Positions 1 to 18,229 of a stretch of DNA of 60,286 bases are shown here, one piece after another. Source of the DNA: Pelotomaculum sp. PtaU1.Bin035 (lineage in GTDB: Bacteria > Bacillota > Desulfotomaculia > Desulfotomaculales > Pelotomaculaceae). Each line of letters opens with the position of its first letter. Position 1 is the first letter of the stretch. The notes under the pieces were generated by a model. The model was not told the DNA's origin. It ran no database searches and saw nothing but the letters and a program-made list of their open reading frames with translations. Both the position numbers and the translations under genes were made by a program. The stretch is from contig MVRN01000128.1 in NCBI GenBank assembly GCA_002067965.1, forward strand, positions 1 through 60,286, read 5' to 3'.

Positions 1-1954
1 CATAAACACCGGTTTTGGGCGTACTGATAAATGGGGGATCTATCGATAAACGCTCCTTGTTAAACAAAAAATGTAAGATGTCACCCGGCAACAACCACCG
101 GCATTTGAGCCCTGTAGCATATGTGAAAACTTCTTCCACATCACCCTCCACAGCAAGCTTATAAAGAAGCCAGGGAAAATCAACCCCTGCCAGTATAGAT
201 AACTGCAGCGACCCCCAAAACCGCGGATTGACTTCCATGAACTTGACCTTACCATCCCTGGGGTCAATCATGAACTCAACTTCTGCAACGCCATACCAAT
301 TAAGTTTTTGCATCAGGTGAGTTGCTTTTTCCACCAGTTCTGGGCGCCAGACGCTTTCCTGAACTGTGCTGGGTCCTCTATTAACGGGAAAATGTCTAAT
401 TTCCTTTTGCACAAAAGAGGCTTTTAATCGCGATGACCGGTCAAAAAGGAGGCAAACATCAAACTTTTCACCGGCGGGGATATATTCTTGGATAATAGGA
501 AAAGGATATCTTTCATGAATTCTCATATACTTATTTGTCAGATCCGCCGCTGAATTGACTAATGCAATGCCTCGAGAACCGGAGCTTTTTCTCGGTTTTA
601 CAATAACCGGAAACGATAATCCGGAGACCGCCAGCGGCAGGTCATCCAGATTATTTATAATTATTGTATCAGGACACTCTAAGCCAGCCTCCTTGGCTAT
701 CATTACCGCAATGGCCTTATCAGCGGCACTGTTGTAATTTTTGCTATCAGGAACTGGTACCTTACAATACTGTTCAATTTCTTCCTTATGCTCAATCACA
801 GTCTCCAGCACCTTGTCATCCATGGGGAAGAGCACCTCACATGGAAAGTGTCTTAGGATGTCTAAAAGCCATTGATAGAACTTATCCGGTTCTTTATTGG
901 GGTTCGGATAAACAAAACTCTTGTTACAATACTTAGAATACAATGAAGTTGCCCAGCGGGTTTCTTCGGCAGCCATGACGTAAATATTTTTATTGCCAAG
1001 GGATCTTGCCACGGCAAGTGTTTTTCTTTGCTGCGCGTCAGTTAATAGAGCACGTCCAACCGTTGCAATTTTAGTATTGTCTTGTTGATGTGCTTTTTTT
1101 CTGATAATCGTAATATTTCTCAAGTATTCCTTATCGAATAATATTATAGATAATAATCCCAATAGTACAGTGAGGGCTATTAATTGAAAATGATAAAAGC
1201 AACTGAGGATAATCCCATATGAATTATCTATGCCGTATAACGATAAACCATATGTAGCAGCCATCTGATATGTCAACAAGCCGGCAGGTAGAATTGCTAA
1301 CATTGATCCTACAGAAGCAATGTTACTTATGTGAAATGCTTCAAAGGCAGTTAACCCTATATTATATGACTTCATGAAAAAGTAAAAGGAGAGGAAAGAA
1401 AACAACCTAGTAATTATGCCATATCCAAGTCCTCTATAGTACTTAACTAGTTTGACGTTCTTAGCTCCCAAGATAAGAGGTGTCAAAATTATAATTAAAA
1501 ATAAAATCAAAAAAGAATATCTATATAAAATAAATTGCTGCCTTACAATAATAAATGCAAGTAATACTGCTAATACTATAGCGCCTTCAATTATTTTTTC
1601 AATAGCTAATAGAATGAGTATATAAATATATTTTTCTTTTGTTGTTTCTTTACTCCACCAGACCTTATACAAATCCCCGGCCCGGGCGGGAAGGATAACA
1701 TTGGCCATCATACTGGTAAATACTTTAGAAAGCGCTGAAGACTTTTCCTCGTTTTTAATCTCAATTAAGGACAGCCAAATAAATCCCCTAGAAAGATACA
1801 TTAACAAAGTTGCTAGTATAAAAACTATATAATAGCTCAAGTAAAAATCCAACTCAAGATTTTTACTTTCCTCTATATCAATATATTTTTTAAAAAACAG
1901 TAAAAATACCAGGAATAAAGCTATTTTTAATACAAAATTGAATCGGCTTTTCAT
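1..1954 (-). CDS. Flippase-like membrane domain fused to ATP-grasp ligase (partial, C-terminus off left edge)
   Basis: Reading the minus strand from ATG at 1954 gives one uninterrupted frame to base 1, at least 651 residues. Residues 1 to about 285 are hydrophobic with several membrane segments and carry the motif LPARAGD, typical of the lysylphosphatidylglycerol-synthase-like flippase family (UPF0104/AglD type). From about residue 300 the chain is soluble and reads as an ATP-grasp domain: FPVIVKPRKSSGSRGIAL (ATP-binding lysine and glycine-rich loop), IIQEYIPAGEKFDV, and FMEVNPRFWGS near the metal-binding site. The start has AGAGGTGATC before it and lies 26 bases after the deacetylase gene, so it is the last visible gene of the polysaccharide operon. 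A role in moving or ligating an amino-acid or sugar building block of the polymer is inference. The ATP-grasp substrate cannot be told, and the C-terminus is missing. Confidence 0.85.
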   Translation of the reverse strand, partial: MKSRFNFVLKIALFLVFLLFFKKYIDIEESKNLELDFYLSYYIVFILATLLMYLSRGFIWLSLIEIKNEEKSSALSKVFTSMMANVILPARAGDLYKVWWSKETTKEKYIYILILLAIEKIIEGAIVLAVLLAFIIVRQQFILYRYSFLILFLIIILTPLILGAKNVKLVKYYRGLGYGIITRLFSFLSFYFFMKSYNIGLTAFEAFHISNIASVGSMLAILPAGLLTYQMAATYGLSLYGIDNSYGIILSCFYHFQLIALTVLLGLLSIILFDKEYLRNITIIRKKAHQQDNTKIATVGRALLTDAQQRKTLAVARSLGNKNIYVMAAEETRWATSLYSKYCNKSFVYPNPNKEPDKFYQWLLDILRHFPCEVLFPMDDKVLETVIEHKEEIEQYCKVPVPDSKNYNSAADKAIAVMIAKEAGLECPDTIIINNLDDLPLAVSGLSFPVIVKPRKSSGSRGIALVNSAADLTNKYMRIHERYPFPIIQEYIPAGEKFDVCLLFDRSSRLKASFVQKEIRHFPVNRGPSTVQESVWRPELVEKATHLMQKLNWYGVAEVEFMIDPRDGKVKFMEVNPRFWGSLQLSILAGVDFPWLLYKLAVEGDVEEVFTYATGLKCRWLLPGDILHFLFNKERLSIDPPFISTPKTGVY

Positions 1955-1980
1955 GATCACCTCTGGTTATTTTGTTGAAA

Positions 1981-3606
1981 TTAGTAGTACTCTAAAACCA
2001 CATGTTTCCGATTTTTTTGACAATAACATAGAATGTTGTTATCATCAATGATATACCATGGTTGTAGTTGATGCTCGGATTGTTCCCAGGAGATATGCAT
2101 CAACGGAGATCTATTAAAAAAATCGTATTTCAAGATCCTGTTATTTTTTGAATCGTATGTGTATAGTATTCCATTGGTCAAAACTGAACCTGTATAGAAT
2201 GCGGAATCGTTATCTGGCAAGGTACAGTATAATGTCAATTCTCCTGTATCTGGATTAATCTGCTGGACTACTCCATTGTTATCAAAAACATATAGTTTTG
2301 AACCATCATTTACAACATTATAGGGGTAGAATGATAAGTCGATTTCTCTTGAAGCGCGCTTACTTAAATCGTTTAAGTCTAATTTATATAAAACTGATCC
2401 TGTTACGCTTCCCACCCAAATGTCTCCGTTAGGCAATATCGTAGGGATAATAAAGGATTCCGGGTTAGGTTGTTTTGAACCAAGTGGTTTTTGAACCGGG
2501 GATGGTCCCAATGTTGTTATCCAGTCTTTCCCTACTGTCATAATTTTACCAGTTGTATCGCCTACTACAAATCTATCATTTATACTGTCGTATGTGATGA
2601 ATCTTGTATTATAGACTGAACCGTTAACTAAAACCATTAGCCCAAAATTAGTAATGCTAAATATTTTATCATAAGATGTTTCCCCTGAAATGCCGATACG
2701 GCACAATCTGTGAGGGGAAGTTGAATTTAGAGGAACAGTTTGTTCACTACCCGTTTTACCTACATTAACCCCCATAATACCAAGTTCATTCATTACTGAG
2801 TCATTGTCGGCTTTTATTTCCATAGTTGCTCCATTTTTCCCGCTAGTGTAAGCAAAACAATATGCAGGATTGTAATGATTGATTACCGCAATTGAAGACT
2901 GCAAATCAGATTTTACTCTTGCATGTCTTTCTTCCATTGTTTCGGTTCTTGACAATGTATCAAGCCATTTTAAATCATTATAAAATGAACCTTTTTCACC
3001 ACCCTCATTTATAGATATGGGTTGATGACCGACATAACCGTGAGACTGTATATCCCAATTATAAGTGTTGCGTAGTGTGGCAATTTGTTTTTGGGTAAGT
3101 CTTAAATCACTGCCGATTTTTGAAGTTTCCACAAAGACTGTAGCCACATAACCATAATTTGCTAATATCGGTGCGGCAACTGTCAAGTTGTCAGCGTAAC
3201 CATCATCAAAAGTCAACCAAATAGATTTTTCCGGCAACGGACATTTGTTGATGTTAAAATCATAAGCCTGTTTCGCCGTGATTGTTTTATAACCGTCTTT
3301 ATACATACGGTCTATAAGTTCCTTGAAACTCCATTCCCAATAGGGATCCAGTCCTCCTTGCGGTTTAATGGTATTTACTGAATGGAACATCAATATGGGT
3401 AATCTTGAGTTATTAAAAATTGTCTTAGTAAAATTAATTTTCACTGTATTATTAGCGCCATCAGTTTCATTAGCCGTTGCAACGACCGGCTTTATTTCCT
3501 TATCTTCCACATGTTCTTTTTGCATGAAACAACCTGCCAATAAAAATAAACCGGATAATATAGCTGTTAGCATAGCTATTATGGCAATAAATGCCGGTCT
3601 GTGCAT
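1981..3606 (-). CDS. Lipoprotein polysaccharide deacetylase (NodB fold) with C-terminal propeller-like region
   Basis: 541 residues. The N-terminus is a lipoprotein signal (hydrophobic residues 8-25, lipobox LLAGC), so the protein should sit on the outer face of the membrane. Residues about 70-290 form a NodB-type carbohydrate esterase 4 domain: PILMFHSVN, then WLTFDDGYADN with the metal-binding Asp pair, then a DIQSHG motif. The last ~220 residues contain repeated strand-rich blocks such as GDIWVGSVTGSVLYKL, GSKLYVFDNNG and NGILYTYDSKN, suggesting a beta-propeller. It probably removes N-acetyl groups from the hexosamine polymer made by this operon, the role PelA or IcaB plays elsewhere (inference). 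The ATG at 3606 is preceded by AAAGGGGA. The propeller may bind polymer. Confidence 0.85.
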   Translation of the reverse strand: MHRPAFIAIIAMLTAILSGLFLLAGCFMQKEHVEDKEIKPVVATANETDGANNTVKINFTKTIFNNSRLPILMFHSVNTIKPQGGLDPYWEWSFKELIDRMYKDGYKTITAKQAYDFNINKCPLPEKSIWLTFDDGYADNLTVAAPILANYGYVATVFVETSKIGSDLRLTQKQIATLRNTYNWDIQSHGYVGHQPISINEGGEKGSFYNDLKWLDTLSRTETMEERHARVKSDLQSSIAVINHYNPAYCFAYTSGKNGATMEIKADNDSVMNELGIMGVNVGKTGSEQTVPLNSTSPHRLCRIGISGETSYDKIFSITNFGLMVLVNGSVYNTRFITYDSINDRFVVGDTTGKIMTVGKDWITTLGPSPVQKPLGSKQPNPESFIIPTILPNGDIWVGSVTGSVLYKLDLNDLSKRASREIDLSFYPYNVVNDGSKLYVFDNNGVVQQINPDTGELTLYCTLPDNDSAFYTGSVLTNGILYTYDSKNNRILKYDFFNRSPLMHISWEQSEHQLQPWYIIDDNNILCYCQKNRKHVVLEYY

Positions 3607-3626
3607 GACAATCCCCTTTCGGTGAA

Positions 3627-4541
3627 TTATTTTCCATAGTTTATATTTCTGTTTTTGTTACTGTCCTTGGATAACTCTATTAATTCATACCTTAGGTTTG
3701 TAATTTGCTCGGCAATCAAGCTAAGTAATATAGTTAGTACACCGGCAAGGTAGAATATACCAACATTCGGTGAGAATTTTGAATGATTAACAAGCTGATA
3801 TACTGTCAGTGCAATAGCAATAGCTAATCCAGCAATCCCAAAAGGCATTAGAATTGTTTGTGGGCTATATAACATAATAATTTTTATTATAATATTAATA
3901 AATTTCATCCCGTCAAAGAAAAGGTTGATACTGCTTTTCCCATGTTTCCTGCCGACTATCGTAGATAGATTAACATATTTGATATTCATTGAACTCTTAA
4001 TCATACATATTGTTAAAGTAGTCGAGTAGGAAAACCTATTTGGAAATAGAGGTAAATAAGGCAAGACTAAATCTCTCTTAAAGGCTCTAAAACCAGAAGT
4101 TAAATCAGATATTTTTTGTTTTGTAATTTGCTGTGCAAACGACTTTAAAAAATAGTTGCTAATACACCTTACTTTTGATAAAGAACCGTTATTCACTCTT
4201 GATCCTACTACCATATCATATTCATCAACGTATTCTAGTAATTTTGGAATATCAGATGGATCATGCTGCCCATCCCCATCTATTAACACTACGTACTCTC
4301 TTGTCGCTTTAATTATGCCTTTCTTCACAGATGCGCCCATGCCCAAGTTATATGGATTTTTTATTATTATTACCTCGTACTGCTTGATAATATCATATGA
4401 ATCATCAGTTGATCCATCGTCTATAACAATAATCTCCCATATACTGTTTATTTCTTTTATTTTATCGATAATACTTGAGATAGTTTTAGCTTCGTTATAG
4501 CAAGGTATTACGACTGAAACATTGTCAATCAATCCAACCAC
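3627..4541 (-). CDS. GT2 family glycosyltransferase (polyprenyl-phosphate sugar transferase type)
   Basis: 304 residues. The N-terminal GT-A domain shows VSVVIPCYNE, VIDDGSTDDS and LIDGDGQHDP (the DXD-type nucleotide-sugar/metal motif), followed by VVGSRVN and TSGFRAF, as in dolichyl- or undecaprenyl-phosphate glycosyltransferases of the DPM1/GtrB type. Two hydrophobic segments near residues 215-270 would anchor it in the membrane. It likely loads a sugar onto a lipid carrier for the GT-C-like enzyme encoded upstream in the same operon (inference). The start is unsettled between GTG 4541 and a TTG nine bases further in; both follow AGGTGG. The gene is AT-rich like its neighbours. Confidence 0.85.
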   Translation of the reverse strand: MVGLIDNVSVVIPCYNEAKTISSIIDKIKEINSIWEIIVIDDGSTDDSYDIIKQYEVIIIKNPYNLGMGASVKKGIIKATREYVVLIDGDGQHDPSDIPKLLEYVDEYDMVVGSRVNNGSLSKVRCISNYFLKSFAQQITKQKISDLTSGFRAFKRDLVLPYLPLFPNRFSYSTTLTICMIKSSMNIKYVNLSTIVGRKHGKSSINLFFDGMKFINIIIKIIMLYSPQTILMPFGIAGLAIAIALTVYQLVNHSKFSPNVGIFYLAGVLTILLSLIAEQITNLRYELIELSKDSNKNRNINYGK

Positions 4542-4586
4542 CTACACTTCTTTTTAATTCTAAATACATCCCATCCGCTTTTTAGA

Positions 4587-5909
4587 TTATGCTCCAATTA
4601 CATTAAAGCCTGCGAAACCTCTCTGACGTAATGCGTTGCGACTGTCCACAATGAGGGCAGGTGATTTATAAATCATTTCATACGGGAAACTAGAATGATC
4701 TGTAACAATTAAGATTGCATCATAGAACTGGATGGATTCTTCTGTGATACTTATTGATTCTAATTGGATTTTTGAGTGCCGGGTTAACAAAAGATTTGGG
4801 AAATAGGGGTCACTGTAATCCACTTGAGCGCCCTTCGCCAGCAGTAGTTCTAATATTTCCACAGATGGTGACCCTCGTAAATCCCCAACGTCTTTTTTGT
4901 AAGCAATACCTAACACCAATATTTTGGAACCGTTAATAGATTTCTTGCGCATGTTTAGTGCATCAGCCAGCTTTTGTATTACATATAAAGGCATTGTATT
5001 ATTAATTTCCCCGGCAAGCTCGACAAAGCGGGTTGTTATCCCGTATTCACGGGCTTTCCATGCTAGATAAAAAGGATCGATGGGTATGCAATGGCCCCCA
5101 AGTCCAGGCCCTGGGTAGAAAGGCTGGAAACCGAAAGGCTTGGTTTTAGCAGCCTCAATCACTTCCCAGATATCTATGCCCATACTGTCAAATGTTATTT
5201 TTAGCTCATTGACCAAAGCTATATTTACGGCGCGATAAATGTTTTCCAATAGCTTGGCTGCCTCTGCTACCCTAGTGGACGAAACCCGAACCACACATCT
5301 GACCACCTGCGCATAGAGAAGGCTTGCTATTTCAAGACACGCAGGGGTAATACCGCTGACTACCTTAGGTGTGTTTTCTAGCTTATATTGTTCGTTTCCA
5401 GGATCCTCGCGCTCAGGTGAAAAGGCCAGGAAAAAATCCTCCCCAACCTTGAGTCCGCTGGTGATTAGGTGAGGTAAAAGTATTTCCTCTGTTGTACCTG
5501 GATAGGTTGTGCTTTCCAGGCAAACAAGCTGGCCGGCTTTTAGATTTTTTACTATAGCATCGGCGGTTTCTACTATAAATTGTAAATCAGGATCATGTTG
5601 GCGTGTCAAAGGTGTTTGCACGCAAATTAGTGATGCGTCAACCTTTCTAAGCTCGTTAAAGTCATTCGTAGCTTTAAGCTGTCCTGCTCGTATCAGGTTA
5701 AATATTCGATCTGAAGGAATGTGCTGGATATAACTTGAACCGTTGTTTATATTGTTTATTTTAGCCTGATCTAAATCAAACCCAATAACTCTAAAGCCAG
5801 CTTCTCCAAATTTTATAGCCAAACCTAAACCCACATAACCAATTCCAATGATTCCCACTGTAAAATCACGATTTACAATACGGTTTTTTATTGTATTAAT
5901 ATTTAACAA
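4587..5909 (-). CDS. UDP-N-acetylhexosamine 6-dehydrogenase (WbpA/TviB-like)
   Basis: 440 residues, normal for the UDP-glucose/GDP-mannose dehydrogenase family. The N-terminal Rossmann motif GIIGIGYVGLGLA binds NAD; ESTTYPGTTEE and FSPEREDPGN are hallmarks of the branch that oxidises UDP-GlcNAc or UDP-ManNAc. The catalytic cysteine lies in GPGLGGHCIPIDP, and the C-terminal domain contains VLGIAYKKDVGDLRGSPS. It converts the C6 hydroxyl of a UDP-HexNAc to a carboxylate, supplying uronic acid units, which would make the polymer anionic. TTG at 5909 is chosen because AAGGAG lies eight bases upstream and no in-frame ATG is near. UDP-GlcNAc versus UDP-ManNAc cannot be decided by eye. Confidence 0.9.
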   Translation of the reverse strand: MLNINTIKNRIVNRDFTVGIIGIGYVGLGLAIKFGEAGFRVIGFDLDQAKINNINNGSSYIQHIPSDRIFNLIRAGQLKATNDFNELRKVDASLICVQTPLTRQHDPDLQFIVETADAIVKNLKAGQLVCLESTTYPGTTEEILLPHLITSGLKVGEDFFLAFSPEREDPGNEQYKLENTPKVVSGITPACLEIASLLYAQVVRCVVRVSSTRVAEAAKLLENIYRAVNIALVNELKITFDSMGIDIWEVIEAAKTKPFGFQPFYPGPGLGGHCIPIDPFYLAWKAREYGITTRFVELAGEINNTMPLYVIQKLADALNMRKKSINGSKILVLGIAYKKDVGDLRGSPSVEILELLLAKGAQVDYSDPYFPNLLLTRHSKIQLESISITEESIQFYDAILIVTDHSSFPYEMIYKSPALIVDSRNALRQRGFAGFNVIGA

Positions 5910-5955
5910 TGATACATCTCCTTAATCATTGATTTGGGATAATTATCCAACTGAT

Positions 5956-8013
5956 TTAGGAAAACAGCAAAACAGGATTTCTTAGGTCCTGTTTAATTAA
6001 AAATATTTTCATGTATTGACCATCAAAAAACACTTTCATGTTATTATTTTTTTTCATATATTCTTCCGCCCAATAATAAGCCCTTGCTTCAATGATTGTT
6101 CTATTAACTACATCCCTATAGTAAAACTCAGTCTCGGGTCCCTTTGTTTCGGGAATCTTTGTTTTTCTATCAACCATTTCTATAGTTTTATTTGAGCCCA
6201 ATGGAATCTTTTCAGTAAAGATAAAAATGTAATCAGTTGGTATTGAAAATGATTTATCACCTTCTTTATCTGCTGTGGGTATTTTTTTTACAAACTCGAT
6301 TAAATCATAGTGCCAGCCTTGTCCTAGAGTTTGCTGATATTGTTCCACAGGAGCAACTATAGTCCAATTGAAGATGGGATAAATGCTTTTGATTTCTAAA
6401 TATGCTTGTACCGCCTCATCATATTCATAGCAATTACCTTCAGGAATCTTCAACGGTATAAAAATAAGCATGGTAATCATAGTAGCCAATGTAACAGCCA
6501 ACTTTATGTCATATGGAGTATTTGTTTTTATCTTTGTCATTGAATTAATTATATCTAGCGTTCCAGCATAAGTAAGGGCAGCAAATAATGTTAAAAACAC
6601 TTCGGTTCGGTATGGATTCATTATAACAGGCAATCCAAGCTCGGCTGCTCTGTATTGCAGGTAAGATATCAATGAGATAAGAGCACAAAAAAGATAAGCC
6701 CTATCAACCCTTCTATTAATTTTTCTTACAACTAATAATAGTTCGTATAATAAAATAATGGTGAAACAAATTAGAATTGCCAGAAGATATGGATTGTTTT
6801 CGGAAAAAATTTTTATACTATTAGTAGCGAAATTGGTCTTATCTTGTATTATCTGTACATTCCGTTCAATATAGTTTATTGAACTGTCGTGAAATTTTTT
6901 GCCTGTAATAACACCAATTATTATTGGAAGGATACCTGCAAGACTGGATAATAGCATAACGAAAACTGATCTAAAAAAAAACTTGGTGTTCAATATATTC
7001 TTAGGATAGCATAAAAAAATAATAGAATAACCTAATAGCAAAAACACCGTCACATATGGGTGGATGAGGAGAGTCAGGGCAAGGCACGCTGCAGACAGCT
7101 TTAAGTATCTTTTCGAAGCGTTTTTCATGTATAAATTAAAAAAGTGAATTCCAGGTAATAAAAATATTGTAGCGTACTCCTGTGACAACGCATTAGATTG
7201 TCTCAAAATATGACTGGGGAACCTATCGTCTACGATAATTCCGTATATAAAAATAGCTATCAGTGCCGCATGTGGACTTTTAAAATTTCTCAGCGCAAAA
7301 TAGTAAACAGATAGTAACAAAAAAAATCCAGCTAGAGGGCCGACAAATCTAACAACAAAATATGGATCAAGAAAGAATAATTTACTAAACGCCGATAAAA
7401 CCGCATGATAGCCATAGGGATAAATCCCATCCCTGTATATCTGATTTAGTCCTAAGTATTTAATCCATATAAGGTGAACATAGGGATCTGCGGCTCCATA
7501 ATATGCGTGGATAATTGAGTGGTTAAACCTTATCACAGCAGCTGCCACAAGTATTATAACTGTAAACAGTCCTGCAATAGGATTTAGAATAGAATAGCGT
7601 AGTATTTGAACAGCACTTTTCCAAAATTGATTAAGCCAGTTTTTTAGTTGGTCGAATAATTCGCCACGTAAACCGGACCTGCCTTCTGATATATCTAGTA
7701 GATTCAAAACCAGCTTCATGCCAAGCGCATCTGCAATTAAGTCGGGATTCCTGCCTTTCTGCCAGGAATAGATGATATATACTATTAAATAACATAAAAG
7801 GAGGGAGAGAAATTCATAAAGTTTAAGAAATGCTAAACAATGAACGATTGAGATGGTTATTATATTTGAGTAAATAAGGCCAATAAACACTTTGTCCAGG
7901 AGTTTATCTTCGTTTTTGAAATTAGAAATCTGAGCTGGTATGAAAATGTAAATGAAGGTGAATAGAATAATTACCTTAACAGCCATTAACAGACTATATC
8001 CCACACCAAGCAT
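5956..8013 (-). CDS. Large multipass membrane protein, GT-C-like glycosyltransferase or polymerase candidate
   Basis: 685 residues with at least ten predicted membrane helices and a soluble C-terminal domain of about 140 residues. The first large outer loop contains YGAADPYVHLIW followed by YPYGYHAVLSAF, an acidic-residue arrangement like that of GT-C enzymes, which use lipid-phosphate sugars (oligosaccharyltransferase or mannosyltransferase type). It follows the 57-residue peptide and precedes the UDP-HexNAc dehydrogenase and the GT2 that could make its lipid-linked donor, so a role in polymer assembly or decoration outside the membrane is reasonable. ATG 8013 has GGAGGA six bases upstream. 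I cannot place it in a named family with certainty. Confidence 0.75.
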   Translation of the reverse strand: MLGVGYSLLMAVKVIILFTFIYIFIPAQISNFKNEDKLLDKVFIGLIYSNIITISIVHCLAFLKLYEFLSLLLCYLIVYIIYSWQKGRNPDLIADALGMKLVLNLLDISEGRSGLRGELFDQLKNWLNQFWKSAVQILRYSILNPIAGLFTVIILVAAAVIRFNHSIIHAYYGAADPYVHLIWIKYLGLNQIYRDGIYPYGYHAVLSAFSKLFFLDPYFVVRFVGPLAGFFLLLSVYYFALRNFKSPHAALIAIFIYGIIVDDRFPSHILRQSNALSQEYATIFLLPGIHFFNLYMKNASKRYLKLSAACLALTLLIHPYVTVFLLLGYSIIFLCYPKNILNTKFFFRSVFVMLLSSLAGILPIIIGVITGKKFHDSSINYIERNVQIIQDKTNFATNSIKIFSENNPYLLAILICFTIILLYELLLVVRKINRRVDRAYLFCALISLISYLQYRAAELGLPVIMNPYRTEVFLTLFAALTYAGTLDIINSMTKIKTNTPYDIKLAVTLATMITMLIFIPLKIPEGNCYEYDEAVQAYLEIKSIYPIFNWTIVAPVEQYQQTLGQGWHYDLIEFVKKIPTADKEGDKSFSIPTDYIFIFTEKIPLGSNKTIEMVDRKTKIPETKGPETEFYYRDVVNRTIIEARAYYWAEEYMKKNNNMKVFFDGQYMKIFLIKQDLRNPVLLFS

Positions 8014-8048
8014 AACTTTCCTCCGCGCATCAGGTTCTTACTAAAAAT

Positions 8049-8222
8049 CTATTGAATCTTATAAACCAATAAGATAATCATATTTATTATTATAATAATA
8101 AATATAAAGAATAAGCATCCTATTGCTTTTTTTACATTGAAGTTAGATTCCTCTGGTTTTTCATTACGTCTATGGTATAATTTCTCATTAGTATCTTTTT
8201 TCCCCTTCAAAAACATTTTCAT
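8049..8222 (-). CDS. Small single-span membrane protein, 57 residues
   Basis: A short frame between the PelG-like and GT-C-like genes, same strand, 39 bases after the former. It encodes a charged cytoplasmic half (residues 1-32, rich in Lys, Arg and Glu), then one strongly hydrophobic segment (about 34-54: IGCLFFIFIIIII and onward) and a short KIQ tail. ATG 8222 has only a weak ribosome site; a second ATG lies two codons in. Its position, membrane segment and lack of overlap make it a plausible small subunit of the polysaccharide machinery, but no family is recognised and AT-rich sequence can produce such frames by chance. Confidence 0.5.
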   Translation of the reverse strand: MKMFLKGKKDTNEKLYHRRNEKPEESNFNVKKAIGCLFFIFIIIIINMIILLVYKIQ

Positions 8223-8261
8223 CCCAGCTTTTCATAAGATGTAAATTTGTTTTTATGATTT

Positions 8262-9863
8262 TTACATTGCAGAATAAAGGTAATAGTCAAGGTTATTAAA
8301 TAATTCCCAAACCCTTCTTGAAGTTATAATCGCAAATGCTATTGCCCCGATCAAAAGCCCGAATACAGCCCATGTATAATCCACCCACCTGCTAAGCACA
8401 AAACCGAGAAAAACATTTATTAGGAGAGCGTACAATGTGGAACGGTAAACTACCTCTGGCTGTGATAGGCTGAACAGGATCATGTTGTTCATTAACGCAA
8501 CTACAATTACAGTGTAGGCTATCACGGCATATATAAATACAAAACGGATCATTTTGTTGGCTATAATATTTGTTTCAAGAGTGCCGTTTTGATTCAAAAT
8601 TTTTATTGAAAAATAGATCATCACAGCGTTGGCCACTGAAAACAGGATAACGAAGATGATCCTTTTGATATACAAAATGATGTAATTCCTGTTCATTTGT
8701 CTTACATTTGCTGCCATGAAATTTTTCTGGTTTGCCTCTAGATTGGTCATGATTTCGTTTACAACAACTTCAACCACGCCCATAGGTAAAATAAAAGTGA
8801 TAATAGCCAAGTCAAGACCCAGTTCATATTCCCCCCGGAACCAAATCAGGTAGGGCATGTAAATATTATTGGTGGACCAGGCAATTACCCGGTCGGCAAA
8901 AAGGAAAGTAAAGTATAAAAAACCATACGCGAAATAAGGGATACTGGTATAGGCCACGATGGACAACCTGGGCATCGGCGGCGCTATACCTTTTTCCGCG
9001 CCTCGTTCCGCCCGCATAAAATAGTAATAGGCTATTGCGACACCGGCCAGTGAGACCAGTGCAAGAGAAATGATTTGTGATAAAATAATATTTACATTGG
9101 CTAATTTAAAAAAAATGAAAACAACAAGTATACCGCCTAATATTAAACCCGTAAAGGTTAGTTCCTTCTGCAACATATACATTATTGTGACTGACAGCCA
9201 AATTGCGCACAAAAATATAAAATATAGAATAACGATAATCACCATGCGCCACGGATAAACCAGGAAAATAGCATTTAACAAAAAAAATAAAGCGGAAGTA
9301 ATTAAACAGACGATAAAACCCGACTTTACAAAATAAAAAGATATCCTTCTGGCTAAATAGTAGTGGCCCTGTCCTAGATACATAAAACCCCGGCGCGCTA
9401 TGGCCTGAGTAAATCCTCCGACTGCCATGAAACTGAGAATAGTTCCAATAGCTATGCTCGTGGCGTTTTCCAACGACAAATATTCATATGACCACAGCGA
9501 AAACCTCAAGGTCAACATAGACGCGACAGATACCGCCATCGGCAGGGCAAATATTGTGCCTCGCAAGAAACTCCGTATAATCATGATGGAGTATTGCATA
9601 AAATCTATTTTTTTAACCGGTGCGGCCGGCATAAAAAGAATCTTTTCCTGTATAATATCCCAAATATCAGCTGAAAGCGCGAAAATATCATCGGTCCCAA
9701 ATGCTTCTGAAGCCATGCTGTCGTTCCAGCCCATTGATTCGAGGATAGCTGCGATTTCGTATTTATCCTCAGGCTGCATCCGGCGCTCGAGGATTTCATT
9801 AATTAATTTATTCAAGGCATTTTCTTTTTCACTCTGACTAATATTGTTATTAATCAGTTTCAT
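8262..9863 (-). CDS. PelG-like polysaccharide transporter (Wzx-type multipass protein)
   Basis: 533 residues. Residues 1 to about 85 are soluble and partly acidic; the rest is hydrophobic with roughly twelve membrane segments. Blocks such as RSFLRGTIFALPMA, FTQAIARRGFMYLGQG, YFIFLCAIWLSVTIMY and FTFLFADRVIAW resemble the PelG branch of the MOP/Wzx flippase superfamily. In Pel systems PelG works with the cytosolic glycosyltransferase PelF to extrude the polymer, and a PelF homologue is encoded three genes upstream here. The extra soluble N-terminal extension is unusual and could dock to the coiled-coil protein whose gene ends four bases before this start. Assignment to PelG rather than a generic Wzx rests on context plus weak motif similarity. 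Confidence 0.7.
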   Translation of the reverse strand: MKLINNNISQSEKENALNKLINEILERRMQPEDKYEIAAILESMGWNDSMASEAFGTDDIFALSADIWDIIQEKILFMPAAPVKKIDFMQYSIMIIRSFLRGTIFALPMAVSVASMLTLRFSLWSYEYLSLENATSIAIGTILSFMAVGGFTQAIARRGFMYLGQGHYYLARRISFYFVKSGFIVCLITSALFFLLNAIFLVYPWRMVIIVILYFIFLCAIWLSVTIMYMLQKELTFTGLILGGILVVFIFFKLANVNIILSQIISLALVSLAGVAIAYYYFMRAERGAEKGIAPPMPRLSIVAYTSIPYFAYGFLYFTFLFADRVIAWSTNNIYMPYLIWFRGEYELGLDLAIITFILPMGVVEVVVNEIMTNLEANQKNFMAANVRQMNRNYIILYIKRIIFVILFSVANAVMIYFSIKILNQNGTLETNIIANKMIRFVFIYAVIAYTVIVVALMNNMILFSLSQPEVVYRSTLYALLINVFLGFVLSRWVDYTWAVFGLLIGAIAFAIITSRRVWELFNNLDYYLYSAM

Positions 9864-9867
9864 TAGA

Positions 9868-11556
9868 TTATTCTTCCAGTCCTGGTATAACCATATGAAT
9901 AATCAATTCGGCCAGTTTACCTTCCTTTTCCGCCTTGTCTATTATTGCCGCTGTGATCAGCTCGTTTTTGCTAATAATGATTTGATCATTGTTGTCCAGC
10001 AGGTCTTCTCCCGCCAATTTTCCCACAACATATTTATGACGCACCGTTTTTATCTCTTTGTCTACCGCCGGACTGGATTTTGGCGCTGCTGCCTGTGGTC
10101 TGGCTTGATAATCGGACACCTTTATTTCGCCTTCAGGGTGTATGGAAGCATGGTCCTGACTAACAGGTGTATCATGTGAGTTGTCCGGCAGGGAGGGCTC
10201 AACCGTTGAAGCAGTTTCTGTTTCGTCAAAATAGGATCCGGATTCACTAAAAAAGGATTCGGATTCTAAAGTTTCTGTTGCTGAAGGTTGCGGTTTGTTA
10301 ACTGTCTCTTTTTCAGTTTTGTTAAAATATAATTCCCCGGTAGTGCTGGTGATATTTTCTTCCATATCGTCTTCCGCGTCTTTGTTTCCCCAGAAACCTT
10401 CCCGGTCTTCCCCAAGATCCATTTCAATGGATTGCGGTTCTGCCGGAATATCAGACGCCGGTGAAATACTAATGATATCGTCTGTTGCTGTTATTTCTGT
10501 TTCGTTAAAATTAGACTCTTCTGAAGCTTCTATATTATCTTCCTCATCGTCGTTATCCCAAAAACCCGACTGGCCTTCCCCAAGATCCATTTCCATAGAT
10601 TGCGGGTCTGGCGGAATGTCACCCATAGATACAGAGTCAACCGCTTCATCCGAAAGGCCAAAATCTGCTAAATATTTTGTACGTTTGCCTGTATTAATTG
10701 CTTTCGGAGCTATTGCTCCGTCAGCGGTCATCTGCTCTTTAATAATTGACTTCAAGTTATCCAATCGCTCCGTGGAATCTTTCCCCGGAGCGCTGGATTT
10801 GTCTGATTGCCTGCTAATCTTCTGCCAATCCGCGGAAACAACGAGAGAGTCTTTTTTTACAGCAATAACACAATCAGCGGTGATAGGCTTGTCGGCGGGT
10901 AGTTGATTTCCTTTGAGGTAAAAACCCTCTATTCCATTTGTTGCCTCGTTTATTATAAGACTCTTGACACGGCCGATCAGCACGCCGTTGGGGAGAACCA
11001 CTGTTTTACCAATGATATCACTGGTTTCGCTGATTAAGCCGTTTCCCAGCGTGGATATAGTAATTTCAGATTTGCTGGCGGAAGGTAGTATCGTACCAAC
11101 TACCTTTCTGATAACTGGGTCGCTTTCAGTATCCCCAGCATCTTCATTTTCAATAATCAACTCTTGAACTTCTTGCAGCATTGAACTCATTTGGGATTTT
11201 AGCTTGACTATTTCATAATCAATGTCTGTTAAATAATTGTTGTGGATTTTCAGCTTTTGTTTTCTGTCCTCCTGAATTTTGGCGACATCTTTTTGGGCGG
11301 CGGCGTCAATTAAATTAGAGTATTCGTTTGTTTTTGTCAAGGCTAGCTCCAGTAATTCTTTGTTCTTGGCATATCTCTCCTGTTCCTCTTGCAACACATT
11401 TAATTCTTGAACAAGAGAGTTTATTTCAATTTTGCAGGTCTCAATATTCTCCTTAATTAAATTAATTTCATTTTCCTGGAATTTATTAGCTTTTTCCAGG
11501 TACTTGTCTACTTGTTTTTTATTGAACCCCATCAGTTTACGATTGATTATTTTCAT
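9868..11556 (-). CDS. DivIVA-like coiled-coil protein with PRC-barrel-like domain and acidic repeat linker
   Basis: 562 residues. The N-terminus (KLMGFNKKQVDKYLEKANKF) resembles the membrane-binding start of DivIVA/GpsB proteins, and residues about 22-135 form a long coiled coil. Residues about 178-245 (IIGKTVVLPNGVLIGRVKSL onward) read as a PRC-barrel. A disordered acidic linker follows, holding two copies of a unit containing PQS(M/I)EMDLGE and GFW at about 310-415. A conserved-looking tail (YVVGKLAGEDLLDNNDQIII) covers about 508-562. The start overlaps the previous gene by 20 bases and the end is four bases from the PelG-like gene, so translation is probably coupled. A membrane scaffold positioning the polymer exporter is inference; I know of no named homologue. 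Confidence 0.8.
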   Translation of the reverse strand: MKIINRKLMGFNKKQVDKYLEKANKFQENEINLIKENIETCKIEINSLVQELNVLQEEQERYAKNKELLELALTKTNEYSNLIDAAAQKDVAKIQEDRKQKLKIHNNYLTDIDYEIVKLKSQMSSMLQEVQELIIENEDAGDTESDPVIRKVVGTILPSASKSEITISTLGNGLISETSDIIGKTVVLPNGVLIGRVKSLIINEATNGIEGFYLKGNQLPADKPITADCVIAVKKDSLVVSADWQKISRQSDKSSAPGKDSTERLDNLKSIIKEQMTADGAIAPKAINTGKRTKYLADFGLSDEAVDSVSMGDIPPDPQSMEMDLGEGQSGFWDNDDEEDNIEASEESNFNETEITATDDIISISPASDIPAEPQSIEMDLGEDREGFWGNKDAEDDMEENITSTTGELYFNKTEKETVNKPQPSATETLESESFFSESGSYFDETETASTVEPSLPDNSHDTPVSQDHASIHPEGEIKVSDYQARPQAAAPKSSPAVDKEIKTVRHKYVVGKLAGEDLLDNNDQIIISKNELITAAIIDKAEKEGKLAELIIHMVIPGLEE

Positions 11557-11986
11557 TTGGCAAAACCCCTTCGGCTGATTCTAACAATAGCCGGTACCGG
11601 CTGGTTACCGAATTGATTTCCTCTTTAACTTTCTTTATATTCGTCTTTAATTTTGTTAATTCATCTTTCTTGAAAAGTACTTTGTCGGTCGCAGTTTTTT
11701 CCGCTCGTCTGGAATCCAGCATTGCCATAAAAACTTTTTCAACGGCATCAAGATGTTTTTTTAATAATATCCGTGAAATTTCATTCTCAATTTTTTTGTA
11801 GGATTCAATGTTATTTTTAACCTTTTCAATGTTGACTTTCAATAGCTGAAGCTGGTGAACTTCGTCAGCAAGCTGCTTTCTCAATTCCATCAAGCTGTCT
11901 TTATAGCGCTTGTCCATGCTTTTTAACTGTTTGTCAACATCTGCCGGGTTATAGCCCCAAAAAGAACGTTTAAACTTAACATTCAT
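11537..11986 (-). CDS. Small DivIVA-like coiled-coil protein
   Basis: 149 residues. The N-terminus KFKRSFWGYNPADVDKQL matches the pattern of the DivIVA domain (FTKSFRGYDEDEVNEFL in Bacillus), where an exposed aromatic and basic pair inserts into curved membrane. The rest is almost entirely coiled coil, with many Lys, Glu and Leu, ending at about residue 140. ATG 11986 has GGGGGA nine bases upstream. It lies 25 bases after the PelF-like gene and overlaps the larger DivIVA-like gene, so the two probably work as a pair. Placing polymer synthesis at poles or septa is inference from the domain family. Confidence 0.8.
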   Translation of the reverse strand: MNVKFKRSFWGYNPADVDKQLKSMDKRYKDSLMELRKQLADEVHQLQLLKVNIEKVKNNIESYKKIENEISRILLKKHLDAVEKVFMAMLDSRRAEKTATDKVLFKKDELTKLKTNIKKVKEEINSVTSRYRLLLESAEGVLPNENNQS

Positions 11987-12011
11987 TTTGCTTGTCCCCC
12001 ACCCTGTTAGA

Positions 12012-13754
12012 TCACGCTATCCTGTTATTTTCCAAATACTCAACCATGGCTTCAACTTTTTCTAATTCGTTAAAAGCCATGTCAAAATTTCCAAGATTAT
12101 TGTAAGCCCTGGCAATTTCCGTTAACAGCACCGGAACCGCCGTAGAATCAACCGCGGCGTCGATCGCTAAGCGGAATTGTGAAATGGCTTCGCGCCAGTG
12201 ACCAATCTCGGCAAGGGCGTAGCCTTTTTCTGAAAGTAATTTTTGCCGTTTCAAGTTAAGCGGTATAACTTTGGGTTCAGCAACTCCAAATGCCAGTTTT
12301 TGATAGCTGTTCAGATAAAGTTCCAATGCCCGCTCAATTGTGAAATAGTTCAGTGCCCTTTCTCTTGCTTCTTTACCAAGGGCTTCACGCATCTCGGGAT
12401 CTTCCAGCAACGTAATCAAAGCTTGCGCAAATTGTTCCGGACTGCGCGGCCTTACAATTATGCCGCAACCTCCGACGGCTTCCTTAACTCCACCGACGTC
12501 TGTGGCCACAACTGGTTTTTCAGTCATCATCGCCTCGATCACTGAATAAGGAAACGCTTCGGTAATACTTGACAGGGCAACAACATCTCCGGTGCGGTAG
12601 GCGGCAGGGGCATCATCGGTGTGCCCGGCGAAAATAAATGTTTCTTCCAGGGCAAGCTCTTTTCTTAAAGCGAGGCACTCTTCATAATACTCCGGAACAG
12701 ATACAGAACCGTATACAATAAACCTGACATCGGGTATTCTATCCTTGACTATAACCGCCGCTCTGATCAGGGTAATCAAATCCTTGACAGGATCTATCCT
12801 GGCTACGGCAACCACCGTCGGGTGCGGGTTCTTCTGAATATTCTGCCGCATCGAAAACAGTTCCTGATCCACACCATTAAAAATGACATCTATTTTCCCT
12901 GGGTGAACTCCGAACATTTTTTCCCATCTGGTATTATACACGCATACTGGAGAAACTTGATCGGCCAGGGCGTAGTTCAAACTGCTTACAGAATGGATCA
13001 TCCTGATCAGGAAGGTATTCAGGTAAGAGGAATACCCCCTGCGTGACAGCGACAGATACTGTTCCCTTAAATAAACTCCATGCTCAGTCAAAAGAAACGG
13101 AGTCCTGTTTTCTAATTTTGCCAGGACGCTTGGTATGCCGCAAAACGCGGCCGCCGCCGAGTGAGTTACATCTACTCTTGGAAGTGGTGTATTTAAGATA
13201 ATTAAAAAACGGTATATCCATCCCAGACTCTGAATTAGGTCGAAAACACTTGGCTGCGCCAGTTTGTTCCTGCCGTCATTCGTATAATTCAGTATAATAC
13301 CTTTAAAAACTTCCCAGGCAGCTTCCGACTTAAAACTGTTTTTATAGTCGTACTCCTGAAAATACTTATACATTTCGCTCAGGACGCCGCCAAGCTTGAG
13401 AGGGTTTTTTTTAAAATTAATTATTTCTTCTATTAAGTTCTGAAACAGTGGTATAAAATGACTTTCAACAATCTTTTTATCTGTGTATCTTTTTGCGGTG
13501 TATACTTTGGAAAAAGGTGTTGTCAGGTGTTCGCTCGGTTCCTCGGTACCCCAGAGCGGCACCTTGATCATGCCGGCGTTGCTTGGCAAGATGAATTTTT
13601 GAGTTACAAAGGGATTCATGATAATACTGTAGATTGTGAAGTCAACTTCAGTTAGCTTTTCTACAAGAAAATTGCACCAAGTGCTTACCCCGCCCTGGTG
13701 AAAAGGGTAGGTTCCTTCAGTGGTAAGCATAACTTTGATTCGATCATTTCGCAT
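12012..13754 (-). CDS. pelF: PelF-like GT4 glycosyltransferase with C-terminal TPR-like tail
   Basis: About 580 residues from ATG 13754. The frame stays open to 13913, but those 53 extra codons are AT-rich, hydrophobic and precede the family's normal start, VMLTTEGTYPFHQGGVSTW, which is characteristic of PelF. The second Rossmann half carries VAVARIDPVKDL, the donor-site region SSITEAFPYSVIEAM and VGGVKEAVGG. PelF is the cytosolic transferase that polymerises UDP-GlcNAc/GalNAc in Pel systems. The last ~60 residues (ALAEIGHWREAISQFRLAID and onward) form one to two TPR-like hairpins, not typical of PelF as I know it, and could bind the neighbouring coiled-coil proteins. It is the first gene of the minus-strand operon. 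Confidence 0.88.
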   Translation of the reverse strand: MRNDRIKVMLTTEGTYPFHQGGVSTWCNFLVEKLTEVDFTIYSIIMNPFVTQKFILPSNAGMIKVPLWGTEEPSEHLTTPFSKVYTAKRYTDKKIVESHFIPLFQNLIEEIINFKKNPLKLGGVLSEMYKYFQEYDYKNSFKSEAAWEVFKGIILNYTNDGRNKLAQPSVFDLIQSLGWIYRFLIILNTPLPRVDVTHSAAAAFCGIPSVLAKLENRTPFLLTEHGVYLREQYLSLSRRGYSSYLNTFLIRMIHSVSSLNYALADQVSPVCVYNTRWEKMFGVHPGKIDVIFNGVDQELFSMRQNIQKNPHPTVVAVARIDPVKDLITLIRAAVIVKDRIPDVRFIVYGSVSVPEYYEECLALRKELALEETFIFAGHTDDAPAAYRTGDVVALSSITEAFPYSVIEAMMTEKPVVATDVGGVKEAVGGCGIIVRPRSPEQFAQALITLLEDPEMREALGKEARERALNYFTIERALELYLNSYQKLAFGVAEPKVIPLNLKRQKLLSEKGYALAEIGHWREAISQFRLAIDAAVDSTAVPVLLTEIARAYNNLGNFDMAFNELEKVEAMVEYLENNRIA

Positions 13755-14104
13755 GGTATCACCATCTTGCGTAAAAGCTTTAGTACTGTTACAAAGGCTG
13801 CAAAGGGGTGTAAAGTTATAAAGTTTCACCAGAATTAGAGTAATAAAAAATAATGCATAATATTTGACCAAATAATAGTTATATTGGCAATAAATAGTTC
13901 CCCTTGAATACAATTCACCAAATAATCTTAATTATAGCAGAAATCAATAATAATGAGAAATAAAACTTTTGTGTCAACCTGTTTTTTTCTGGCATGATAT
14001 TCGTTAAACAATAAAAAAAGCCGCCTGGAACATAAAAATCTTGTATGTTATAATTTAGCTGCGCAGCACCCTGTTGCCGCTAATTTTTGAATAATGGGGG
14101 TTTT
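13755..14104. promoter_or_regulatory. Divergent intergenic region between pelF-like gene and epimerase gene
   Basis: This 350-base AT-rich gap separates two divergent transcripts. On the minus strand an extended -10 element (TGC then TATAAT, bases 13939-13931) would start a leader of about 175 bases before the pelF-like ATG. A TTGACA also lies on that strand at 13977-13972, too far from it (35 bases) to be its partner. On the plus strand TGT-TATAAT (14046-14054) would serve the epimerase gene about 50 bases on. The long leader leaves room for post-transcriptional control, but I recognise no known riboswitch in it. Confidence 0.45.
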
Positions 14105-15080: not shown

Positions 15081-17438
15081 ATGGATAATAAGACACTATT
15101 AAGGCTTGAATACAATAAGGTTAAGGAACAACTGGCTGTATTTGCAGGATCGCCTCTCGGGAAAGAGCGGGTGAAGGAATTGGCGCCGGTAGACGACTTG
15201 GGTACTATTCTCAGGTGGCAGGCCGAGACCAGCGAGGGGCGCGAACTGCTCAGGCTGGACCCGACCGCTGAAATTGGCGGGTGGCATGATATCCGGCAAC
15301 AGCTCCAAAGAGCGGGCCGCGGGGCGTTGCTTGAACCGGAGGAACTTACAGCCGTGGCGGACACCCTCAGAGCCTGCCGGGTTATAAAAAAGTTTTTGAC
15401 GGAAAAGAGGGATCGCTATCCACTGCTTAGTGAACTTGGGGTATCCTTGGCCTCGTTGCCTGATCTGGAGAACAAAATCAAGCAGGCCGTCCTGCCTGGT
15501 GGTGAAATTGCCGACGGCGCATCCTCCGTATTGGCACAAATACGCCGCAAACTATTAAATGCCCAGGCACAGATCAAGGAGCATCTGGAGCATGTCATCC
15601 GCTCTCCGGATTACCAGAAATATTTGCAAGACCCAATAGTCACGGTCAGGGAAGGGCGGTACGTGGTGCCGGTAAAAATTGAATACCGCGGCCAGGTGCC
15701 GGGGATTGTCCACGACCAGTCCGCCAGTGGCGCCACCCTTTTTATTGAGCCAATGGCGGTGGTTGATAAGAATAATGAGTTAAGGCGCCTCATGGTGGCG
15801 GAGAGACAGGAGGTTATGAAAATCCTTGCTGATCTTTCTGAGAGGGTGGCACGTAACGCCGAAGATTTAAGTATTTCGATGGAAGCTCTTGGGGAACTTG
15901 ATTTTATTATGGCTAAAGCCGGGTACAGCCAGAAATTGAACGCTTGGGCTCCTGTGTTTGAAGGCGAAGCGAGCATGAATATCCGGCAAGGGAGACACCC
16001 GCTGCTGAAAGGGGAAGTAGTGCCTGTAGATCTGCGGCTTGGCGAAGATTTTGATACTCTGGTAATTACCGGCCCGAACACCGGCGGTAAAACTGTTGCT
16101 TTAAAAACTGCCGGCATCCTGGTATTAATGGCCCAGTCCGGATTGCACCTGCCGGCTGAGGACGGTTCAAAACTAGGGATATTTCAACAAGTTTTTACTG
16201 ATATCGGTGATGAACAAAGTATTGAGCAGTCTCTGAGCACCTTTTCCTCCCATATAATTAATATCGTTGAAATTGTTTGTAAAGCCGGCCGGGACAGCCT
16301 GGTGCTGCTGGATGAGTTGGGGGCCGGAACAGACCCTACCGAAGGGGCGGCCCTGGCCCAGTCGATTTTAGAAAAACTGCACTCATCGGGTGTGAAAACC
16401 GTAGCCACTACCCATTACAGCGAGTTAAAGAACTTTGCCTATACGCGTGACCGGGTGGAAAATGCCAGTGTGGAGTTTGATACTATTACTTTAAGACCCA
16501 ACTACCGCCTATTAATAGGCAGGCCGGGCCGCAGCAACGCCTTTGAAATTGCAACAAGGCTGGGTTTGCCGGGAGATCTGGTTGAGCGGGCCAGGGGTTT
16601 TCTGACATCAGAGCAGGTGCAAATAGATGATTTGATGCGCAATTTGGAAAAGGCACAGCGGGAAGTAGAGGCCGAGCGTGAGGAAGCGGTTCAATTGACG
16701 GAAAAAGCAAGGCATCTCAAAGATAAATATGAAAAATTGGAGTTTGACATTGCTCAAAAACGGGAGTCCATCCTGGCAAAAGCCGGGGAAGAGGCAAGGG
16801 TTCTGGTTAAAGCAGCAAGGTTGGAAGCGGATTCTGCAGTTAAGGAATTACGGGTAAAGCTGGCCCGGGAAGCGGCACATGTCAGGGAGAGCGCTATTCA
16901 GGAAGCAAGGGAAAAGTTGGCGAAACTACAGAAAAAGGTAAATGAAGCCGTCCCGGAAAAGGTTGCCGCCGGACAAGCGCCTGGCAATCTGCAAAGCGGA
17001 GAAGAAGTCTACCTGCCCAAATTTAACCAAAAAGGTTTTGTCTTGACCCCTCCTGATACCGATGGCGAAGTACATGTGCAGGTCGGTGTAATTAAGATTT
17101 CAGTCCCATTAAAAGAATTGCGCCGGGTCGAGAGGTCCAGGCCGGCCGGCGGACAAAGTGAAGCGGCGGGGTTAGCGCTGAATAAAGCGCGGGAAGTATC
17201 ATTTGAGCTGGATCTAAGAGGCCTTTACGCTGATGATGCCTTGCTTGAGGTCGAAAAGTACCTGGACGACGCATATTTGGCCGGCCTTCCAAAAGTCCGC
17301 CTGATTCACGGCAAAGGTACGGGCTCGCTGCGGATGGCGATCCATAGGTATCTTAACGGGCACCGCCGGGTTAAATCCTTCCGCCTGGGTGAACAGGGTG
17401 AGGGAGGTTTCGGGGTTACAGTAGTGGATCTGGCTTAG
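15081..17438 (+). CDS. mutS2: MutS2 family ATPase/endonuclease (RqcU)
   Basis: 785 residues from ATG 15081, which has AGGCAGGGTT just upstream and fits the family length; the open frame extends 18 codons further 5' into the epimerase gene. The lever/clamp region covers residues 1-300, the Walker A motif GPNTGGKT lies near 335, and the ATPase blocks LDELGAGTDP and TTHYSELK follow. A long coiled coil spans about 510-640, then a KOW-like segment and the C-terminal Smr domain ending in RLIHGKGTGSLR. In Bacillus MutS2 acts on collided ribosomes in quality control and has been linked to suppression of recombination. The domain set is complete with no sign of damage. Confidence 0.96.
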   Translation: MDNKTLLRLEYNKVKEQLAVFAGSPLGKERVKELAPVDDLGTILRWQAETSEGRELLRLDPTAEIGGWHDIRQQLQRAGRGALLEPEELTAVADTLRACRVIKKFLTEKRDRYPLLSELGVSLASLPDLENKIKQAVLPGGEIADGASSVLAQIRRKLLNAQAQIKEHLEHVIRSPDYQKYLQDPIVTVREGRYVVPVKIEYRGQVPGIVHDQSASGATLFIEPMAVVDKNNELRRLMVAERQEVMKILADLSERVARNAEDLSISMEALGELDFIMAKAGYSQKLNAWAPVFEGEASMNIRQGRHPLLKGEVVPVDLRLGEDFDTLVITGPNTGGKTVALKTAGILVLMAQSGLHLPAEDGSKLGIFQQVFTDIGDEQSIEQSLSTFSSHIINIVEIVCKAGRDSLVLLDELGAGTDPTEGAALAQSILEKLHSSGVKTVATTHYSELKNFAYTRDRVENASVEFDTITLRPNYRLLIGRPGRSNAFEIATRLGLPGDLVERARGFLTSEQVQIDDLMRNLEKAQREVEAEREEAVQLTEKARHLKDKYEKLEFDIAQKRESILAKAGEEARVLVKAARLEADSAVKELRVKLAREAAHVRESAIQEAREKLAKLQKKVNEAVPEKVAAGQAPGNLQSGEEVYLPKFNQKGFVLTPPDTDGEVHVQVGVIKISVPLKELRRVERSRPAGGQSEAAGLALNKAREVSFELDLRGLYADDALLEVEKYLDDAYLAGLPKVRLIHGKGTGSLRMAIHRYLNGHRRVKSFRLGEQGEGGFGVTVVDLA

Positions 17439-17893
17439 TCTAGAAGTAATATTATTTCACGCAGGAAGTACTTTCTACTATAGAATTAATAAAAATTACT
17501 CGCGGGAAAGAACCAACAACCTCAAATTGTTATTATTTACAACTGCCAGCGACATGGCCGGCAAGCCTTGACTCGCTGTAAAATATCTAATACAGGGGAC
17601 GGGCGAGGGTGATGGTAGACGGTATTACTGATACCTGAATTCGATGGTAAAAGCCACCCATTAAAGGTGGCTTTTGGTTGAAAGTTATATATATATATCC
17701 GACAGGTATGCCGACTTTTCTTACCCTTCGGTTTCTTAATACTTTTAATAAAAGCTTCCATGAATAAATCAACCACCTGACATTATAATAAGAAATCAAT
17801 TCAGTCTAGTCGAGTTGGCTTATTAACCTGACACCTCATTCTACCCGTCAAATAGGAATTGTTATCCCCTTGTTGATACTGATAACATTTAGT
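17439..17893. other. Intergenic region after mutS2 with possible short transcript
   Basis: No protein gene is supported here. TTGACT (17569-17574) lies upstream of a purine-rich stretch (about 17595-17640) that runs into the terminator-like hairpin at 17651-17675, which could define a short RNA on the plus strand. The -10 candidate is poor (TAATAC), so this is only a suggestion. The hairpin may equally end the mutS2 transcript and, on the other strand, the 111-residue gene's transcript. Confidence 0.3.
17651..17675 (+). terminator. Intrinsic terminator (probably bidirectional)
   Basis: Perfect 8-base stem AAGCCACC/GGTGGCTT with a 7-base loop, followed by TT on the plus strand and preceded by AAA, which gives a T-run on the minus strand too. 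It lies between mutS2 and the convergent 111-residue gene. Confidence 0.65.
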
Positions 17894-18229
17894 TCAGCTT
17901 AACCTTCCGAGTAAAGACCTTAGTACATCATCAAAGGGCATGTTGCCAATTTCATCCAAGATTTTGTCCAATCTGGTTCTCCGCCTCAATGAACCATCCA
18001 AAAGAATTTCAATTGATTGATTCCTGTCTATTAAAACTGATCTTACCTCCAGTACTCCTCTTATCAGGCCGAGAATTACCAGGACCTTTTGCGGGGTGAG
18101 TACCGGCGGTTTTTTTTTGCCAACGCAGCACCCTGAATTTGTGTGGGTGTCTTGAGAATTCACTTTTCCTTGACCTAATTGGGAGATGATTTGTTCCAGT
18201 AAACCATCAAATTGTTCCGGTGAAAACAC
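17894..18229 (-). CDS. Conserved hypothetical protein, 111 residues
   Basis: Starts at GTG 18229 with AAGGGGGA eight bases upstream. The N-terminal third is polar (EQFDGLLEQIISQLGQG) and has a CC pair; the C-terminal two thirds are strongly patterned (VLVILGLIRGVLEVRSVLID, then LDGSLRRRTRLDKILDEIG and MPFDDVL). I recall similar proteins of unknown function in Desulfotomaculum-type genomes, but cannot name a family. It has no signal peptide, and one weak hydrophobic stretch is more likely a buried helix or strand. The gene is monocistronic and convergent with mutS2. Confidence 0.7.
   Translation of the reverse strand: MFSPEQFDGLLEQIISQLGQGKVNSQDTHTNSGCCVGKKKPPVLTPQKVLVILGLIRGVLEVRSVLIDRNQSIEILLDGSLRRRTRLDKILDEIGNMPFDDVLRSLLGRLS

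Follow-up and report, generated by a model that had tools for sequence, protein, structure and literature searches.

A PF03706 flippase-like domain and an ATP-grasp ligase in one reading frame of a PelF/PelG-type polysaccharide cluster from Pelotomaculum

A single reading frame at one end of a contig from the uncultured bacterium Pelotomaculum sp. PtaU1.Bin035 joins an N-terminal PF03706 membrane domain to a C-terminal ATP-grasp domain. The window, i.e., the whole stretch of DNA that was analysed, comprises the entire contig C128 (60,286 bases) of a draft genome of 2.54 Mb in 128 contigs. Judged by comparison with related genes, this one frame encodes two domains that are separate in all homologues found, and the fused architecture was encountered once among the genomes and plasmids searched. 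We regard as the likely explanation that two neighbouring genes of a PelF/PelG-type surface-polysaccharide operon became fused in frame in this lineage, with the two activities serving different steps of the pathway. The parts themselves are ordinary, and the protein is a variant of the composite flippase and composite ATP-grasp proteins known in glycan pathways.

The frame is continuous, as the initial annotation had stated; it runs on the minus strand without a stop from the ATG at 1954 to base 2 (651 codons), and the Shine-Dalgarno sequence AGAGGTGA lies immediately 5' of the ATG. The two domains named there, an LPARAGD-type membrane domain and an ATP-grasp, are likewise confirmed by Pfam matches above the cut-offs. 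The membrane domain, of the PF03706 family (LPG_synthase_TM; COG0392, AglD2-YbhN type), occupies 1115–1954 on the minus strand (residues 1–280), as delimited by the Pfam match, identity to the nearest relative (G081), hydrophobic segments and the LPARAGD motif. PF03706 matches residues 8–161 and a second stretch with 61.7 bits versus a cut-off of 33.4, which places this part in the PF03706/COG0392 flippase-like family at the profile level. It is followed, on the same strand, by a lysine/arginine-rich linker at 1058–1114 (residues 281–299) and by the ATP-grasp ligase domain at 2–1057 (residues 300–651), the latter defined by Pfam, identity to the ATP-grasps of two relatives (G081 and G080) and an AlphaFold model. 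CPSase_L_D2, ATP-grasp_3, ATPgrasp_Ter and ATP-grasp all exceed their Pfam cut-offs at about residues 410–620 of the fusion. The fused gene is incomplete, since base 1 of the window is the end of the contig, and about 35–40 C-terminal residues are missing in comparison with the G081 and G080 ATP-grasps. Extension to the left, which had been proposed for recovering the C-terminus, halts at base 1 of this contig, but beyond a gap of about 0.5 kb the locus resumes on another contig, C63, within the next gene.

The ATP-grasp core had been described as complete-looking; it was indeed modelled well, whereas its C-terminus is absent. The model, which was built from 18 sequences and covers the ATP-grasp domain alone, has a mean pLDDT of 92.5. 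Its structural matches are biotin carboxylase, 2pn1 (Z 28.6), PurK and PylC, and the fold shared with these proteins gives no substrate. Profile matches and predicted fold together assign this part, lacking its C-terminus, to the ATP-grasp superfamily, whose general chemistry leads one to expect that it forms an amide via an acyl-phosphate. The C-terminal E-x-N motif is present as MEVNPRFW (E574, N576), almost invariant in the ATP-grasp alignment, and a VKPRKSSGSRG loop is present as well; from knowledge of the superfamily, we take the former to be metal-binding and the latter to form the nucleotide site. The best NCBIfam match, from residue 303, is PRK12767, 'carbamoyl phosphate synthase-like', at 88.9 bits with a cut-off of 390. 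In family-level score and in fold, PRK12767-type proteins and 2pn1 are therefore the nearest counterparts, at a score far under the curated cut-off; to our knowledge, these proteins are standalone and uncharacterised.

Among 113 genomes of the order (the class-level sample gave the identical 113), only G081 and G080 contain close relatives. In G081, the parts are a 326-aa PF03706 gene (L036, 16010–16990) and a 389-aa ATP-grasp gene (16908–18077), which overlap by 83 nt in differing frames, and the fusion is 51% identical to the first and about 64–65% identical to the second. G080 has the ATP-grasp only (57% identical), and a GT2-GtrA gene stands ahead of it where the flippase would be. No PF03706 frame in the 113 genomes besides the fused gene is longer than 387 aa, and no other is fused. 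The whole fusion, used as a query against about 85,000 species genomes, gave no match. A second scan of these, with an alignment of three ATP-grasps as the query, yielded eight orthologues, including those of G081, G080 and the cultured Paenibacillus alginolyticus, and in all eight the ATP-grasp is a gene of its own, of about 387–404 aa. In a phylum sample of 398 genomes, the closest matches begin at query residues 297–302 and belong to frames of 395–407 aa. Matches were also obtained in 121 plasmid records, and no single place in any of them spans 80% of the query; haloarchaeal plasmids give the best of these matches, and three that were examined are all standalone ATP-grasp genes. The initial annotation had named homologues that are always two genes as a refutation of its interpretation. 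The ATP-grasp is separate in every homologue found, which speaks against that interpretation, and the reading of the fusion as a distinctive class of enzyme has only partial support. A literature search for a flippase-like domain with an ATP-grasp returned nothing specific.

Two long frames of 525–526 aa (L051 and L052) were considered as further fusions and rejected: their extra N-terminal stretch of about 145 residues is low-complexity, GC-rich alternative-frame read-through, and start codons sit near the beginning of the homology (ATG in L052, GTG in L051). The haloarchaeal plasmid loci L088, L089 and L090, whose standalone ATP-grasp homologues show 34–38% identity, have polysaccharide deacetylase genes in the same stretch, together with a varying set of genes for a flippase, a glycosyltransferase or a nucleotide sugar dehydrogenase.

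Homology to the separate G081 genes reaches residue 288 on the flippase side and starts from about residue 295 on the ATP-grasp side, so that the junction falls at about 1120–1057 of the window. The linker tail after the last hydrophobic segment contains six lysines and arginines and, given this richness, is probably cytosolic. A run of seven adenines (1100–1094) lies within the junction and is a plausible site of an evolutionary indel, or of an error. This raises the alternative that an indel or base error near the junction has artificially joined two separate, probably overlapping, genes, as they are in the nearest relative, where the frame changes at the junction. A frame shift at the adenine run would stop the flippase within a few codons (at 1072 or 1045), and the gene is known from a single draft genome with a contig end close by. 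To weigh against this, every single-base insertion or deletion was tried from 1160 to 1057. Those between 1122 and 1057, i.e., between the homology anchors, soon terminate the flippase, with stops at 1072, 1045 or 1039, but leave the ATP-grasp without an ATG, GTG or TTG start, apart from one TTG that lacks a proper Shine-Dalgarno sequence. Since a separate ATP-grasp gene would need a start codon, we favour the continuous frame; the upstream cluster genes, moreover, are uninterrupted frames. We therefore hold an artefact to be unlikely, though by no means negligible. The sole nearby in-frame start with a Shine-Dalgarno-like stretch is the TTG at 1121–1123 on the minus strand, with AAGGA 4 nt upstream, and some separate ATP-grasp product could arise from it. 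The frameshift error that had been contemplated at the junction is thus disfavoured by the start-codon and indel scan of this single MAG, and the fusion, seen in one draft MAG only, is rare and probably real.

The composition of the two parts differs as well. GC3 rises from 0.31 in the PF03706 part to 0.44 in the ATP-grasp part of the fused gene, and from 0.40 in the PF03706 gene to 0.82 in the ATP-grasp gene of G081 (L036:16010-18077). These steps suggest separate histories of the two parts, although membrane-protein codon bias may contribute. A search of viral contigs and phages for a copy of the junction found none.

Gene content and recurrence show the locus to be a polysaccharide cluster of the PelF/PelG type that is conserved among relatives. 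In the order of transcription, all on the minus strand, it consists of a PelF-family GT4 glycosyltransferase (12012–13913; NCBIfam PelF NF038011, 157.7 bits, cut-off 100), a DivIVA-like coiled-coil protein (11537–11986) and a PRC-barrel protein (9868–11556), both of which are cluster proteins of the sister loci too, a PelG-like exporter (8262–9863; PF16933 at 18 bits, below the cut-off of 29, with orthologues in sister loci), a polytopic 685-aa protein (5956–8013), a UDP-sugar 6-dehydrogenase (4587–5909; TIGR03026, 418 bits), a GT2 of the Dpm/AglJ type (3627–4541), which its profile matches make a candidate polyprenyl-phosphate sugar synthase, a PgaB/IcaB-like polysaccharide deacetylase with a C-terminal extension (1981–3606; assigned by profile, with a 67% identical orthologue in G081), and the fused gene. 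Intergenic gaps range from -20 to 46 nt, with the exception of 248 nt 5' of the 685-aa gene. No Pfam family matches the 685-aa protein, which is STT3/PglB-like by predicted structure: its model (pLDDT 78.5) finds STT3, PglB, DPY19 and EmbA/B GT-C proteins in Foldseek, with E down to 6e-7 and TM about 0.4. On C63, the locus resumes inside an XrtA-type DUF3473 deacetylase gene, 64% identical to that of G081, beyond which lie genes for a MurJ-like flippase, a GT2 and an HD-domain protein. The gene order is mostly common to the sister loci.

Polytopic counterparts of this protein, likewise without a Pfam match, are also encoded at L036:8136-10187, L036:5880-7895 and L038:1-1956, one or two per PelF/PelG-type locus. 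In addition, C63 encodes a secreted-looking protein (L098:5308-7326) with an N-terminal Cu_amine_oxidN1 domain, its sole Pfam match; on visual inspection, its C-terminal region resembles GH114-type polygalactosaminidases.

Under the preferred reading, a fusion of neighbouring operon genes, the PF03706 domain would bring an undecaprenyl-phosphate-linked sugar, presumably the product of the neighbouring Dpm-type GT2, to the outer leaflet for use by the STT3-like GT-C. This Dpm-type GT2 and the GT-C glycosyltransferase are the nearest operon partners of the flippase. For most of the PF03706 family, outside MprF, flippase activity is a prediction. The GT2-GtrA in the PF03706 slot of G080 has the appearance of a flippase-type swap, which would fit a role as polyprenyl-phosphate-sugar flippase. 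COG0392 proteins have been predicted to be flippases from archaeal gene neighbourhoods (PMC5898192), and the set of GT2, PF03706 and STT3-like GT-C in this locus resembles such a neighbourhood.

The presumably cytosolic ATP-grasp, for its part, would link an amine on a sugar precursor with a carboxylic acid, forming the amide via an acyl-phosphate. It may acylate the amine that the XrtA-type (DUF3473) deacetylase exposes, or amidate a uronic acid produced by the UDP-sugar dehydrogenase, and both versions are plausible. The uronic-amide version is weakened because the dehydrogenase was not seen in most of the orthologue loci fetched. The DUF3473 deacetylase is found in the loci of seven of the eight orthologues and adjoins the ATP-grasp in most, so that N-acylation of the freed amino sugar offers the alternative.

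The initial annotation went further and suggested that one chain might attach a substituent to a lipid-linked substrate by ligation and also translocate it. Such a scheme, with a lipid-linked sugar as the substrate of the ATP-grasp and its modified form flipped by the fused PF03706 domain, accords with the single frame, with the adjacency of the two genes in G081 as well, and with the known composites of PF03706 and a substrate-making enzyme (MprF, AglD; PMC5898192). The fusion was met only once, however, the operon partners GT2 and GT-C account for the substrate of the flippase, and most loci keep the ATP-grasp while showing no PF03706 gene. Of the two parts, the ATP-grasp is better conserved in the cluster and is also found without PF03706, so that its reaction is independent of the flippase; the suggestion finds no support, and we deem it improbable. 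In the operon-gene fusion that we prefer, the tether is probably incidental, a consequence of the two genes having been neighbours, and dispensable.

Comparison with known systems places the fusion beside several composite proteins. Members of PF03706/COG0392 (AglD2-YbhN, MprF) occur standalone or fused to the enzyme that acts on their lipid substrate (PMC5898192). In AglD, a GT2 is N-terminal to PF03706, whereas here the GT2 is the separate gene at 3627–4541. In MprF, the partner is a DUF2156 LPG synthase, whereas the fusion has no Pfam match to PF09924 (DUF2156) and its C-terminal part is an ATP-grasp. A selected bifunctional enzyme following the logic of MprF, i.e., one polypeptide that both aminoacylates or amidates a lipid-linked sugar and flips it, with the ATP-grasp replacing tRNA-dependent transfer, seems improbable. 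In Campylobacter jejuni, Cj1438C offers a published precedent for the amidation: it consists of a GT2 fused to a TupA-like ATP-grasp and amidates capsule GlcA (PMC11800379). Our protein is similar in that an ATP-grasp ligase is joined to another polysaccharide-pathway component, but it differs in the partner domain and in the ATP-grasp family, the TupA-like family being absent from its Pfam matches at E 0.1.

At the level of the operon, the described Gram-positive pelDEADAFG operons (PMC7112168) have a PelF-family glycosyltransferase, deacetylases and probably the PelG-like exporter in common with this locus. Only the latter has the GT-C, the MurJ-like protein, the XrtA-type deacetylase, the DivIVA/PRC proteins and the ATP-grasp, and general profile scans of its cluster proteins gave no match to PelD (the c-di-GMP receptor) or PelE. 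The departure from the described operon extends to the Firmicute cluster as sampled in the window (1–14000), C63/L098, L036, L038 and L041-L046.

As a 'Rosetta-stone' hint, the fusion would indicate that a flippase and a ligase of a polysaccharide pathway work close together, although one instance counts for little. The cluster context, with its PelF/PelG-type genes, ATP-grasp, XrtA-type deacetylase, MurJ-like flippase and STT3-like GT-C, matters more than the fusion itself. It suggests that the cluster makes a Pel-related polymer that is modified, possibly by N-acylation or amidation, an idea that is testable in the cultured Paenibacillus alginolyticus. A literature search for a PelF/PelG cluster with an ATP-grasp found no specific paper. 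Elsewhere in the window, the plus strand encodes a 1523-aa cell-surface protein that combines SLH, PKD and Ig-like domains (51267–55838), and a D12-class adenine methyltransferase gene is located at 48444–49388.
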